Below, piece after piece: positions 9,921-14,871 of a DNA stretch of 64,000 nt. Under the pieces are notes generated by a model. The model searched no databases. It saw only the letters and a program-made list of their open reading frames with translations, and was not told the DNA's origin. Source of the stretch: Beverwykella pulmonaria (taxonomy: Eukaryota; Ascomycota; Dothideomycetes; Pleosporales; Melanommataceae); assembly GCA_001599595.1 (NCBI GenBank), contig BCHH01000001.1, positions 3,811,068 to 3,875,067 on the forward strand, given 5' to 3'. The position numbers and the translations under genes were made by a program. Positions within the stretch are counted from its first letter, which is position 1. Every line of letters begins with the position of its first letter.

Positions 9921-9929
9921 GGCGGAATT
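9921..9929 (+). repeat. Left 9-bp target-site duplication of the MULE
   Basis: GGCGGAATT here is repeated in direct orientation at 14863-14871, immediately outside the two inverted termini. Neighbouring bases beyond the 9-mer differ (GAA versus CTC before it), so the duplication is exactly 9 bp. That is the usual size for the Mutator superfamily. Confidence 0.9.
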
Positions 9930-9972
9930 GAGACTACAGCTCAGCTGACCCACACTAGAGCGTCGCTTAATT
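9930..9972 (+). repeat. Left terminal inverted repeat of the MULE
   Basis: This end starts GAGACTACAGCTCAGCTG. It matches the reverse complement of 14820-14862 with differences only at positions 4, 5, 33 and 39, and an uninterrupted match of 27 bases from position 6 to 32. It contains CAGCTG-type palindromes. The accessory gene ATG lies 148 bp inside this end. Confidence 0.9.
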
Positions 9973-10077
9973 TAGCGTCGCACGGACCTACCCACAATAA
10001 CTGAGATGACTCCTCCACTTTCTCGCCTTCTCACCTTCTCTATCAACTCTTCAACTCACCTCCAATTATATCACAAC

Positions 10078-11143
10078 ATGTCCAAAGCGCTCGAGTCCTC
10101 AGTAAGTACAGTTATCACATATAGAAACGTTCTGATCGTTCTGTAGACCTCATACAGAGCGTATAAGGCGCTCGGCGAGCTTCCGCTAGGCGCAGACAAA
10201 TTTGCGGTTCTGGGTGACATTGTAAGCGAGAAACAATGTCTTGTCATACTGTTCTGAACATGTTCACAAGGCTGGTATTCCAGAGATTCATGTGGAATTT
10301 GGAGAGCTCTATTGCCGAGTTGAGCTCCCAGGTCTGAATGGAGAGCTTTGCGGCGTAAGTTGAACCCCTTCTGAAGCGGTTCCCAAGCTGTTCTTGAGAT
10401 GAACTAGATTGTTGTTAACACATTCTCAACATATTCAGAAGGTCTTTGATAGCCGTGGCGCACTCTGCACTCATATCAAAAAGCATCATCAAGATCTTGT
10501 CCGTGTGCAACCATCTGGTCATACTGGAAATCCTTCAACCAAGAGAGTCGAGGAAGCTCGTCGTAAGAAATTCGATAATTGCTTCTGAATATATTCATAA
10601 CAATCCCGCAGCTTTCTACGCGCAAATTATGGCTAAACACAATACCAATGTCGCCGAAAAGGGTTCTGAACAAGTTGAGAACATGATCCCTCCGCCGCCG
10701 CGAACGTCGAAAAAAGCCTCGCGCCCGCCGAAGCCGTCTCCAATTCGTTCTCAACGTGTCGATGCACCCGTCTACAAGTCTGCCAACAAGAAGAGGAATC
10801 AAATTAAAGGACAAGTGAGTGAATTCTGTTAACATACTGTTAGGAACGTGTTGACAATGTGTTTAGCTCAATCTTAAGGCTTGCTCAAAGATCGCTAAGG
10901 CGAAGGGTGGAGATGTGCCTTGTGCCGGGTGTGTTCGTGATGCAGCAGCCATGAGCCAAGAAATTCCAACGCGTAAGAAAGTCATATGAAGGTGTTGCAA
11001 ACACGTTACTAACATGTTCAGACTGTCTGTTCACCTTGTGCTGTGAGAACATCAAATTCTTCAAAGGCTTGTTTGACGGAGATGATAGCGAGGAAGATGA
11101 GCAGGAGGATGACGATGATGATGGTGATTATGCCGACATTTAG
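10078..11143 (+). CDS. MULE accessory protein, zinc-finger-like with acidic tail, 245 aa
   Basis: Seven exons: 10078-10101, 10147-10221, 10271-10354, 10439-10562, 10612-10814, 10867-10972 and 11022-11143. All six introns (45-84 nt) keep phase. The N-terminal half has a zinc-finger-like spacing, C-x11-C-x12-H-x3-H, spanning exons 3-4 (ELCGKVFDSRGALCTHIKKH), with the second half matching a classical C2H2 finger. The middle is basic and Pro-rich (IPPPPRTSKKASRPPKP). A Cys-rich patch (VPCAGCVRD, then LCCENIKFF) precedes a C-terminal Asp/Glu run. I recognise no family. Lying inside a transposon beside its transposase, it is plausibly a DNA-binding helper, perhaps recognising the 11-bp units. That role is inferred, not shown. 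All six introns carry those units in more or less diverged form. Confidence 0.8.
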
Positions 11144-14100
11144 AGGTTGGACGAATTAGTGGAGAAGGGAAATCTTAAGACGTTATGGTAATGTTCTGAA
11201 CACGTTCAGAACATGGTGAGTAGATGAAGTTGGCTGGGCAGTGAGGAGACTTTGAGTAGATATACTCAACCATTACCAACAGGTTCTCAACGGCTTCGGA
11301 ACATGTTCACAATGTATCTAATAAACATCCAACATATATCAATCAACACTTTCTCAACATGTTGACAATATATTGACAAAGTTACAAACCATTTAACCTC
11401 ATTCTTTCTGCCATCTCCTTCTCCTGTATTGCGAGATCTAGCTCTAGCCTTTGAGTTTCTAGTCTTGTTGATCTAAGCTTTACTTCTCGCTGCCGGAGTA
11501 ACTCTTCCTCCTCTTGTTGCTCAAGACGTAGGCGTCTTGCTTGTAATTCTGCATTATTATTTAGTGCTTGACGCTTTAATCTCTCGTTTCCTGGCATAGG
11601 CCTTGTCAATATGTTAGCAACACGTTGTCAAAACGTTAGTAACATGCTTACGAGGCACTCTGCATTTCTTGTGTAGATGAGCGACGTCTGCTTTGGCTTG
11701 CACTTCTACTACCTCTCCTGCTCCTTGCACGACCCCTTCTTTCTGAAGATGGAGCTCGTACAACGCCTGAGGATGAGGATCGGAATAAGATACTGTCATC
11801 AGTCTCATCACATAGGAGTTCGTCGGGAATAGGGTCAGAGTATCTATCTTGACGTCGTTCTGAACATGTTAGAAACCTGTTCCTATAACATTGGAACACA
11901 TACTATCTCTGGCCAGATGGTTGATATAACGGGCAGACATGGCTGTTGAACGAGCAATATGTCTCATTCCGTAGTCCTCACGAGCCCTATACTGACTAAC
12001 ATCCCGCATGTCAAGCTTTTGCGCACTATAACATGTTACGAACGTGTTCCAGACGTGTTCCAGACGTGTTTATAACTGACTTACGATTGAATTGCTCTTA
12101 GTAGTTTCATTCTCATCCCATACGAATAGGACTTGTTGCCACTCTGCTCAACAGCATTAGAAGTCTTTGAGAACTCATCCCAATCAGCTTTTTCCATTAA
12201 AGAACAGCTATGGTTAAGCCCTGCTGCAATTACTGGATTCTTTTTATGCAAAGCCCAACGGCGTACAGAAGGAGATTCATGCCCTACTGTCTAATTAGTT
12301 GCTAACATGTTCAGAAGGGATTCGCAACTAACTCATAAGAAGGTCGCAAAGATTATTGTACTCTGCCTGACTTTGGCATGTGAGAAGGGATCTCATACGA
12401 GAATGGGGAGAGTAGTGCCCCTCTGCAGTCCCAGCAGTTGCTGTTACACTTCGTAGGAAGTGAATTTGGCAGAATATAACACAGTTTTGAAGGTGCCACT
12501 GCCACGGGCGCTGCTGTACGTCAATACTAGCGAGGTAATGACCAAATCCTTGTCAACATGTTAGCAACGAGTTCCAAACAGGATTAATCTCTTTACCTGA
12601 CATCTGTTTAGAGTCCATATCAATTGTAATTCCGGCAAAACCCTCGCCGTGCAGATGTTTCCATTGTATTTCCTTCTGAACACATTGTGAAAGTAATTGA
12701 AAGAATTTCTGAAAGCATATTGTATATACGTCTTTTCGTTCACTGTTGACAAGAACACGTGCAAGAGTTATAACTAAACATATTAGAATGTCAACATGTT
12801 CAGGACGTGTTCACATACCCTTCCCATGATCTTCATGAAACATCGCAAAAATCAGCTCTTTGAAGTTCTGATCCTTGATACGCTTAAAAGAAAGATCTAT
12901 TTGAAAGCTTCTTTGCAAGACAAAGAGATCTGCCTGTTCTTTGTAGAAGCAAAAAATAAGCGTGCCCAGTTCTGAACTCTGTACGTGCTGGATGTATGCC
13001 TGCTCCTGTTATCAACATGATGTAAACACCTTCAGAACACATTAACATACTGTTTCAGGGTTTAACGCTTGCCTGCGCCACTCGAACTCAACCCCAGCAA
13101 GCTCTTGACCTCTTGGAAATGTAATAAGATTTGTTCGATATACCTGGCGCTCTGTCCAGCTAAGATTAACTAATGTTGGGTGTAATTGAGTATAGTGTGT
13201 TACGCTATGAGCCTTGCAAAGCTCGTCTAGGAAAGGACTGCAGAGAAACTTTGCTATCAACATGTTAACAACTTAATCACAACCTATTAAGAACACATTA
13301 CAAACCTGTTGTTAACCCAGGATCATTAATACGTTGGATAAGTTGGATAATTTCGTTTGTTAAAGCCTCAGGCGTTTTATGTGGAGGTGGAGGGGGATGC
13401 TCATGAACCCCACGTGACGTAAATGTGTAGTATGGAGTCTGTACTAAGTTATGGGGAATAATTATATCAAATTTTACTTCGCAGCTCTGGGCTATAAGCT
13501 GCCCAGGCCCTTGTGGATGGTCAATATCTGTAATACAGTTATGAACCTGTTGAGAACATGTTTAGAACACTTACTGCAGTTTTTCATCCTTGTCAAGGTT
13601 GACTCAATAGTACCGCAGGATTCTGGCTGCAGCTCAACGTCCCCTAGGCCATCTCTAAATAGTACTTGAAGACGAGGAATACTATACCTCTCAGCTAGTA
13701 TCTTAAAGAAATGCCTCTCAGTATTAGGAAGCGCGTAGCTCCATGTTGCACAGCCAATATACCAGTGCTGAATACCAGAAACAGACTATATTATGTTCAG
13801 AATTACTTCACAAGTTATTTAGAAGAATTACCTTGTTAGCCATTTGCCGCAGGATAGGCGCACATTGAGGCTTTCGGCTACCGCAAGCAATTCCACTCTG
13901 AAATCGACTCATAATTGATAAATATAAACTTAACATGTTAGCAACACGTTCACATTATGTTCACAATAACTACCTGGTAGAATTCTGACTCTGCTTATCT
14001 ATGTGAGTTCTCTCAATTCCCTGCCGGGCTTGCTTTAGCAGCTCCCAAGTCTCTGGGGTGACACTAGTATGTGAATGTGTTCGCAACGTGTTATGAAGAT

Positions 14101-14697
14101 ATTTACAACGTCGTACTCCAGTGCATCGGTATTTATACCTTGTAGCAGGCACACCAAGAAACGGGGAGCTAGTAGCCTTTGGTGGGGCTCTCCGTCTTCG
14201 ACAATATTGGATCTAAAGATGTTCAGATTGGCTCTGTAACACGTTCATAACATAATCCGCTTACTTGGAGAGCCTCTTCAAGAACATGCTCGTGTTCTGC
14301 ACTGTGCTGGTCTATTTTTACGCAGTAGGTGTAACCATGTGCAGCTGTTTCTGGGTATTCAGGCAGCAACGCAATATGAGTAAGATGTTGGCTGAGTAAT
14401 GGTTCTGCAGGGCCAGTCGTAATTTGATAAGGTTCAGGTATTGTCTTGTAAACAGGTTACTAACATGTTCTCAACGTGTTGGTCTTTTTCTACCTCATCT
14501 ATCGTTTCACTCTCCTGTAGCTCATCCTGCATTGCATCTTCAACAGTAGGCTCTGGCGTATCATTAAGCTCTATGAAATAATCTTCGTAGTCGCTGCTGT
14601 GTGGAGTAACATTGTTGAACGAGGTGTTGCAGGGCGATATCTGGGAAGAGTCTAGTTTCATGAGAATACGTTGTGAATACGTTGGGAAGCAATTTAC
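10102..14697. repeat. 11-bp unit family AACATGTTNNN in MULE introns and spacer
   Basis: Tandem or single units occur in nearly every one of the 20 MULE introns. Clear runs include 12026-12084 (four units in register), 14445-14493 (three), 11602-11651 (three), 13528-13574 (three), 13908-13973 (three), 10973-11021 (three) and 10222-10270 (three). Typical units are AACATGTTCAG, AACACGTTGAG and AACGTGTTGCT. The core AACATGTT is a palindrome, and joined units create YTNAAC branch-site-like sequences and sometimes the CAG acceptor itself. Weak or diverged versions lie in introns 10102-10146, 13786-13831 and 14213-14264. Host introns that I spliced in the same window do not show the unit. Confidence 0.9.
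11144..11381. repeat. Spacer between convergent MULE genes, with 11-bp units
   Basis: This 238-bp gap holds no gene. It carries 11-bp units in register at 11199-11220, 11289-11310 and 11345-11377. The last is three consecutive units ending four bases before the transposase stop codon. Both 3' ends of the convergent genes must terminate here. I see no classical terminator-like element. Confidence 0.8.
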
Positions 14698-14701
14698 CCA
14701 T
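11382..14701 (-). CDS. MULE transposase, DDE type, 874 aa
   Basis: Fifteen exons on the minus strand: 14701-14698, 14651-14494, 14444-14265, 14212-13974, 13907-13832, 13785-13575, 13527-13306, 13253-13051, 13005-12819, 12773-12597, 12548-12333, 12286-12085, 12025-11904, 11859-11652 and 11601-11382. All 14 introns (44-66 nt) keep phase and total length is a multiple of three. The N-terminal 110 residues are acidic. Next comes a Cys/His-rich region ending in SRGVHEHPPPPP, like the WRKY/GCM-type zinc fingers of MULEs. Catalytic candidates are D468 (QIDLSFKR), D545 (ITIDMD) and E671 (TSNAVEQ), with C579-x2-H582 between D545 and E671. An Arg/Ser-rich stretch and a Gln/Glu-rich coiled coil close the protein. 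Exon 1 is only ATGG; an alternative start is the ATG at 14661. It appears intact. Confidence 0.88.
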
Positions 14702-14819
14702 GGCTAGTTGTGAGCTATCTGAAATAGGAAGTCAGTTGGCAGAAAGGACTCCGTTGAAAGTTGGGCAGTCACCCCCTTAAATCGAGAAATTTTTGTACAG
14801 GGGTCTGCAGCGCCAAGAG

Positions 14820-14862
14820 AATTTAGCGAGGCTCTAGTGTGGGTCAGCTGAGCTGTAACCTC
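14820..14862 (-). repeat. Right terminal inverted repeat of the MULE
   Basis: Read on the minus strand from 14862 it starts GAGGTTACAGCTCAGCTG and pairs with the left end at 9930-9972. The transposase start lies about 160 bp inside, so the promoter must be in or next to this terminus. Confidence 0.9.
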
Positions 14863-14871
14863 GGCGGAATT
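14863..14871 (+). repeat. Right 9-bp target-site duplication of the MULE
   Basis: GGCGGAATT in direct orientation matches 9921-9929. Removing the element and one copy would restore an uninterrupted host sequence joining 9929 to 14872. Confidence 0.9.

Follow-up and report, generated by a model that had tools for sequence, protein, structure and literature searches.

Why should the introns of a transposon consist largely of one short repeat? This question is raised by a Mutator-like element (MULE) in the fungus Beverwykella pulmonaria (Dothideomycetes), which lies complete at positions 9930-14862 (4,933 bp) of a 64,000-nucleotide stretch of contig BCHH01000001.1; this whole stretch is called the window below, and coordinates without a contig label refer to it. 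An earlier note had described 11-bp repeats in the introns of the element's two genes and proposed that they are splicing modules, protein-binding arrays, or both. We found that the unit is an 8-bp palindromic core (AACATGTT) recurring at 11-bp steps both in the introns and between the genes. We judge it slightly more probable than not that these arrays serve as recognition sites at the DNA level for a protein that the element itself encodes, the likeliest candidate being the C2H2 protein of gene 1. The element has two convergent genes, gene 1 on the plus and gene 2 on the minus strand, and the following parts (protein lengths in amino acids, aa).

9921..9929, no strand: left target-site duplication GGCGGAATT, a perfect 9-bp direct repeat with 14863-14871
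9930..9972, plus: left terminal inverted repeat, 43 bp, 91% complementary to 14820-14862
10078..11143, plus: gene 1, 245-aa C2H2-like zinc-finger protein, 7 exons (rebuilt frame, zf-C2H2_4 match, homologs)
11144..11381, no strand: array-bearing stretch between the convergent genes, 238 bp, 9 cores within 2 mismatches, lag-11 identity 0.476
11382..14701, minus: gene 2, 874-aa MULE-type transposase, 15 exons (rebuilt frame, homologs, spliced alignment)
14820..14862, minus: right terminal inverted repeat, 43 bp, partner of 9930-9972
14863..14871, no strand: right target-site duplication GGCGGAATT, 9 bp, identical to the left one

The 11-bp unit and the introns that carry it

Each unit comprises an 8-bp inverted repeat, AAY-NN-RTT, and a largely free 3-bp spacer. 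Within one mismatch, AACATGTT occurs 27 times in 1008 nt of intron (26.8/kb), 5 times in the 238 nt between the genes (21.0/kb), 7 times in 3378 nt of exon (2.1/kb, with a core at 10075 that straddles the gene 1 start codon tallied here and not as terminal), 32 times in the remaining 59 kb of the window (0.54/kb), and not at all in the 309 terminal nt; 500 dinucleotide shuffles of the introns gave a mean of 1.7 cores and a maximum of 8, against the 27 observed. Identity at lag 11 is 0.487 in introns and about as high in the intergenic stretch, compared with 0.261 in exons and 0.251 (standard deviation 0.038) at other intron lags, and 27 of the 39 gaps between successive units in noncoding DNA are exactly 11, with none at 10 or 12. 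Allowing two mismatches gives 82 words, which form 31 pairs at spacing 11 and 16 at spacing 22, while no other spacing up to 60 exceeds 5 pairs and the 295 such words in the other 59 kb form only 3 pairs at spacing 11. Two of the checks proposed by the earlier note, a motif comparison of introns with exons and an autocorrelation at 11 bp, both confirm its repeat. The introns and the positions of their units are as follows.

10102..10146, plus: gene 1 intron 1, no unit within 2 mismatches
10222..10270, plus: gene 1 intron 2, single exact core at 10257
10355..10438, plus: gene 1 intron 3, units at 10417, 10428
10563..10611, plus: gene 1 intron 4, one unit with 2 mismatches
10815..10866, plus: gene 1 intron 5, units at 10845, 10856
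10973..11021, plus: gene 1 intron 6, units at 10989, 11000, 11011
11602..11651, minus: gene 2 intron, units at 11608, 11619, 11630, 11641
11860..11903, minus: gene 2 intron, units at 11863, 11874
12026..12084, minus: gene 2 intron, four units at 12030, 12041, 12052, 12063
12287..12332, minus: gene 2 intron, exact core at 12304, acceptor at 12284 or 12287
12549..12596, minus: gene 2 intron, units at 12555, 12566, 12577
12774..12818, minus: gene 2 intron, units at 12793, 12804
13000..13050, minus: gene 2 intron, units at 13014, 13025, 13036
13254..13305, minus: gene 2 intron, units at 13259, 13281, 13292
13528..13574, minus: gene 2 intron, units at 13544, 13555
13786..13831, minus: gene 2 intron, two weak units, out of register
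13929..13973, minus: gene 2 intron, units at 13932, 13943, 13954
14213..14264, minus: gene 2 intron, units at 14216, 14238, 14249
14445..14493, minus: gene 2 intron, units at 14451, 14462, 14473
14652..14697, minus: gene 2 intron 1, units at 14665, 14676, without homolog support

At least one core within two mismatches is present in 19 of the 20 introns, and at least two in an 11- or 22-bp register in 15, so that the description of nearly all introns as unit-bearing stands, as does that of four consecutive units in 12026-12084. Three introns had been named as weak matches, which is right for 10102-10146, with none, and 13786-13831, and wrong for 14213-14264, which holds three units in register.

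Removal of the 20 introns (6 in gene 1 and 14 in gene 2) restores two open frames of 245 and 874 aa, and 19 of the 20 intron models are backed by spliced alignment of proteins of other fungi. For gene 2, the ungapped alignment used two of five homologs (P0001 and P0002), each of which recovers 13 of the 14 introns, the exception being the 5'-most, 14652-14697; two extra short introns proposed by P0001 (11486-11527 and 11943-11981) were dropped. For gene 1, the Melanomma homolog (P0006) recovers all six introns, P0007 recovers four, and P0008 three plus three aberrant ones. Boundaries shift at 13929-13973 and 13000-13050 and at the acceptor at 12284 or 12287. Where the source of a gene 2 homolog is named, it is Pleomassaria (53% identity), Bimuria, or Plenodomus, and each of these proteins is labeled hypothetical. 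Homologs of gene 1 are in Melanomma (47-48% identical), Zopfia, and Lindgomyces; its relatives numbered four by a search with a four-row alignment, compared with none by a single-sequence search. A lineage check placed Pleomassaria, Zopfia, and Melanomma all in the Dothideomycetes.

The element is present in five full copies of 99-100% identity in the 45.6-Mb genome, the window copy included, and all five are flanked by a perfect 9-bp duplication that differs at each site, within the 8-11 bp expected of a MULE; the 43-bp inverted repeats with 91% complementarity agree with this assignment. The Pfam MULE profile PF10551 matches gene 2 with E 0.008 and 17 bits, below its cut-off of 27.6 bits, and in the Pfam scan it matched none of the five gene 2 homologs; therefore, the MULE label rests mainly on the inverted repeats and the 9-bp duplication. 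In six aligned sequences, D468 and D547 of gene 2 are invariant and a third candidate, E671, is replaced by K in one; going by MULE patterns, these three are candidates for the catalytic acidic residues. A structure model of a transposase homolog was too poor for a fold search (predicted local distance difference test, pLDDT, 48.8).

Arrays beyond the introns and beyond one element

The arrays had been presented as an intron feature. They are present in introns, but also in the 238-bp stretch between the genes, which overlaps no intron model, and hence they are not intron specific. Motif scanning also finds units in register inside exons.

10669..10687, no strand: two units in register inside a gene 1 exon
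14074..14103, no strand: three units in register inside a gene 2 exon, where the protein stretch is conserved

The region 14066-14140 was considered as an additional intron and rejected, since it aligns with protein in all five gene 2 homologs.

Arrays are also found in shortened derivatives of the element. One of 1,045 bp carries 17 units in five arrays (100 shuffles: mean of 0.3, maximum of 3) and no frame longer than 53 aa. Its two insertions have the same sequence but different flanking 9-bp duplications (CAGTTTAGA and AGGGGCAGC), so it seems to have transposed, arrays included, although it lacks genes. Two longer derivatives, of 1.8 and 3.5 kb, hold 10 and 20 units in chains, respectively, and no perfect duplication was found at their tested ends. 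Inside the 3.5-kb derivative, C4:141700-142240 is a repetitive, minisatellite-like stretch, visible as repeats in open frames.

Searching the genome with one homolog as query revealed further transposase loci, among them four diverged families with usable intron models; C2:4458738, which has no such model, was left out.

C7:919603-922781: C7 family, 846 aa, no stop
C1:1254971-1258040: C1b family, no stop
C25 family: 9-10 stops, degraded
C9/C13 family: two loci with 99.5% identity across 4,187 bp, reading frames partly broken

The 846-aa frame at C7:919603-922781 is intact, with no inverted repeats or gene 1 found nearby, as might be seen in a relic or a domesticated gene. The element ends of C7 and C9/C13 were sought and not resolved. 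Eleven gene 2 intron positions (alignment columns 122, 202, 234, 308, 382, 451, 512, 574, 648, 714, and 755, with positions called common when within two columns) are common to the window element, C7, and C1b; ten of these also occur in C25, in one or other of two models, and fewer in C9. Introner-like spread, in which the same sequence is inserted as new introns at unshared positions, was rejected: these positions are common to relatives of about 30-45% protein identity, some with differing units.

Among lags 4-33, lag 11 scores highest in the introns of each of the five families, and none of 1000 base shuffles reaches it in any of them. The core is family specific: three families have AACnnGTT, whereas AATnnATT is the core of C1b and of C25, the latter degraded and weakly supported. 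Intron counts of AACnnGTT and AATnnATT are 18 and 0 in window gene 2, 12 and 0 in C7, 1 and 29 in C1b, and 0 and 4 in C25, with C9 excluded. Among AA....TT words, C9 included, core positions 3 and 6 covary from CG to TA: CG is found in 26 of 58 words in the window introns and intergenic stretch, 12 of 21 in C7, and 14 of 21 in C9, and TA in 26 of 32 in C1b and 4 of 14 in C25. The paired pattern AATAYATTnnnAATAYATT has six matches in the genome on both strands, all in C1b, compared with four, at places not shown, for the pattern written backwards. For C9, 7 of 16 proposed introns entered the lag, folding, and phase analyses, the rest being long, off the common positions, or spanning N; its near-twin C13 was excluded from intron counts; the 10 introns of C25 were drawn from two alternative models; and one C1b intron was added by hand for the core-count and phase analyses.

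Since the core is self-complementary, neighboring palindromic units might pair in the transcript as RNA hairpins. However, mean folding z-scores range from -0.52 to 0.11 over six intron sets, and neighboring units are not significantly more complementary than shuffled pairs in any of five sets (lowest p 0.17), which makes this explanation very improbable. Fungal silencing of repeats is well known, and the arrays could also be bound by a host factor, for or against the element; however, one factor does not readily explain why different families in one genome keep two cores, and we give this possibility little weight.

Across the whole genome, unit pairs within two mismatches number 194 on one strand, compared with 29 for the backwards pattern; 148 of the 194 are located in about 88 kb of examined loci (family elements and array-bearing loci, with part of their surroundings), and the window's 59 kb of host sequence contains none. 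When any gap of 0-28 is allowed, nine exact AACATGTT pairs occur in the genome, all with gap 3, against one for the backwards control; six are in recognized family derivatives, and three are in loci matching no family. These three loci (C5:3198713, C18:3555, and C12:16683) contribute five pairs to the 148, from which two others without a family match (C2:1540964 and C2:3802599) were left out; in two of the three, the exact pair lies close to a contig end, and the spacer is the same. Four loci with matching ends (C2:5126245, C7:2166782, C7:2110243, and C2:372707) contain no pairs. The host controls were candidate introns called by frame bridging, 7 strict ones and 95 loose ones, and many of the loose ones are false calls. 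Candidate host introns have no lag-11 signal (0.254 versus 0.260), no AAYnnRTT pair at lag 11 in the 95 loose candidates, and no core in the 7 strict ones; the loose set has six single cores within one mismatch in 7590 nt, near background. Together with the genome-wide pair count, these indirect controls support the earlier observation that host introns lack the units.

Slippage, splicing, and the candidate reader

On a neutral origin, slippage and conversion would have multiplied the 11-bp word in DNA free of constraint, and its versions would have drifted apart between families. Near-identical copies do gain or lose one 11-base unit, and 12026-12084 contains adjacent identical units.

12042..12052, no strand: 11-base stretch (one unit length), in two and missing from three of the five full copies

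However, cores are better conserved than spacers. At 11 bp from a seed unit, where the neighbor is not selected by its own content, it has the sequence AACaTGTT in window gene 2, whereas in C1b it is AATatATT; the spacers are less informative (that of C1b leans to GCT). Compared with a 91% identical relative, differences number 4/64 in cores, 30/219 in other noncoding DNA, and 40/550 in exons, and among the five copies 3/411, 11/835, and 14/3378, respectively; these are small counts on which no test was made, with cores defined on the window copy. Moreover, period and palindrome are alike in five families with different cores. Thus, neutral expansion has only a minor chance of being the explanation.

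Alternatively, units could have multiplied as splicing modules, which make short introns splice by supplying a branch site (YTnAAC) at the right distance from the acceptor. The main unit phase relative to the 3' splice site falls in five neighboring registers (10, 0, 1, 2, and 3 of 11, chosen after looking) in 50 of 60 introns (binomial p 2e-9), and a branch-like YTnAY is part of the unit in 34 of 61. Because the phase is nonrandom to the intron end and YTnAY lies within the unit, the unit often supplies the branch region of the intron, in line with what the earlier note had said of YTNAAC; the intron positions common to diverged families also fit such modules. However, the intergenic stretch is equally periodic, the gene-less derivatives are dense in arrays, the palindrome is retained despite the core change, candidate host introns lack the signal, and many introns contain three or four units where one branch site should do. 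A splice role explains the register and not the intergenic arrays, the gene-less arrays, or the palindrome, and splicing modules are an unlikely account of the arrays. Between the options first put forward, binding gains, since the arrays are also intergenic and in a gene-less mobile derivative, the palindrome survives the core change, and most genome pairs lie in these loci; the phase speaks for a role in splicing as well, but not as the sole reason.

How might such arrays be read? A dimeric DNA-binding protein would fit an 8-bp inverted repeat, and copies repeated every 11 bp, about one helical turn, would form an array of dimer sites along one face of the helix. The binder would most likely be encoded by the element, with the C2H2 protein of gene 1 as the best candidate and the transposase as the second. 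By binding along internal noncoding DNA, each family could recognize its own copies, gene-less derivatives included, and such recognition could, for example, keep copies open or expressed against host silencing. Coevolution of protein and sites would yield differing cores, of which there are at least two among the families. Introns would then be the storage place for such sites in a gene-dense element, with the unit nearest the 3' splice site often doubling as branch-point sequence.

The candidacy of gene 1 can be followed through its relatives. The motif GE..CR...CG..[FY]..RGAL..H of gene 1 is also present in relatives at C9, C1:910159, and C13:417063-417438, whose introns, by eye, also bear units; gene 1 relatives adjoin a transposase (C9) or units elsewhere in the genome, and there are relatives in other Dothideomycetes. 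The homolog at C1:909761-910651 sits in a unit-rich stretch with no transposase match adjoining, and the relative at C13:417063-417438, on the minus strand, has proposed introns with AACnnGTT units.

Several points weigh against arrays read by the gene 1 protein. The zf-C2H2_4 match of gene 1, with E 7.5e-5, scores too low for Pfam's cut-off, and a structure model of a gene 1 homolog is as unusable (pLDDT 46.4) as that of the transposase. C1b keeps its arrays with, by eye, a short gene-1-like piece near the end of the transposase gene, which neither tblastn nor spliced alignment detected, and no gene 1 was seen in the flanks of the C7 relative. C25 is degraded, with thin evidence for units, and 46 of the 194 genome pairs have no assigned location. 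The variation of one 11-base unit among copies shows that tandem slippage also acts on the arrays, and unit phase tracks the 3' splice site, which a pure binding model does not lead one to expect.

Because C1b has only the short piece and the C7 flanks have no gene 1, gene 1 need not be the binder, and the transposase is possible in its place. In that case the arrays would bind the transposase for assembly of the transposition complex, much as in Ac or En/Spm, whose subterminal repeats offer many short transposase-binding sites. The transposase is conserved in all five families, while neither C1b nor C7 yielded a full gene 1. The sites of Ac and En/Spm are subterminal, however, whereas here the arrays are internal and no core within one mismatch occurs in the 309 terminal bases; the unit-free termini speak against ordinary subterminal transposase sites, and we consider this explanation improbable.

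Returning to recognition sites for an element-encoded protein, we offer a wider proposal, to which we assign somewhat less than an even chance: that a fungal Mutator lineage independently evolved a self-recognition code, in which the internal noncoding DNA, and the introns most of all, forms an array of a family-specific palindrome with an 11-bp period, and a dimeric zinc-finger protein encoded by the element reads it. A change of core (AAC..GTT to AAT..ATT) would then have gone along with a change of reader, derivatives without genes would be recognized in trans, and part of the array sequence would serve as branch sites too.

Comparison with known systems

The closest parallel comes from plant VANDAL elements, which belong to the same transposon superfamily as this element. 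VANC21 of Arabidopsis VANDAL21 binds YAGTATTAY, which is arrayed in intron, intergenic, and terminal noncoding DNA, while VANDAL repeats undergo rapid tandem gain and loss and related VANCs act on different targets (Hosaka 2017, PMC5735166). A 2026 meeting report mentions unpublished VANC-DNA work suggesting coevolution (PMC12859917). The two systems are alike in having an extra gene, a short motif repeated in introns and intergenic DNA, repeat gain and loss between copies, and a motif or targets that differ between related families. In contrast, the VANDAL motif is nonpalindromic and in one orientation, whereas the fungal core is palindromic with a strict 11-bp step; VANDAL arrays are also terminal, whereas here the termini lack units and nearly all introns have arrays (PMC5735166). 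A Pfam scan of gene 1 found neither of the VANC domains, DUF1985 or DUF287, and instead the weak C2H2-like match; one gene 1 homolog had no Pfam match at all, and the others had a weak C2H2 match at most. We therefore regard the arrays as analogous to those of VANDAL/VANC and do not claim membership in that family.

Among fungi, Mutyl of Yarrowia lipolytica is an ascomycete MULE with a 9- to 10-bp target duplication, a C2H2 motif, and an antisense second gene whose function is not known, and so resembles the present element with its 9-bp duplication, C2H2-like protein, and second gene in antisense; it differs in its 22-bp inverted repeats and 7.4-kb length, and the consulted portions of its descriptions mention no intron or noncoding arrays (PMC6446971, PMC5014426). 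Hop and other fungal MULEs likewise have a Mutator-type transposase, with a 9-bp duplication in Hop, and arrays are not mentioned in the same portions (PMC6446971, PMC5014426). The earlier note knew of no fungal element of this kind, and a literature search of open-licence papers, mostly judged from listings, likewise found no fungal transposon with such arrays; the parallel that exists is the plant one.

If the arrays are read by an element-encoded protein, such site arrays evolved in Mutator elements of both fungi and plants, and the introns of these transposons gain a reason to exist, namely, storage of cis-acting sites that leaves the protein untouched. With five families and at least two cores in one genome, coevolution of protein and DNA becomes testable by ordinary binding assays, and the arrays could yield new pairs of DNA-binding protein and site.

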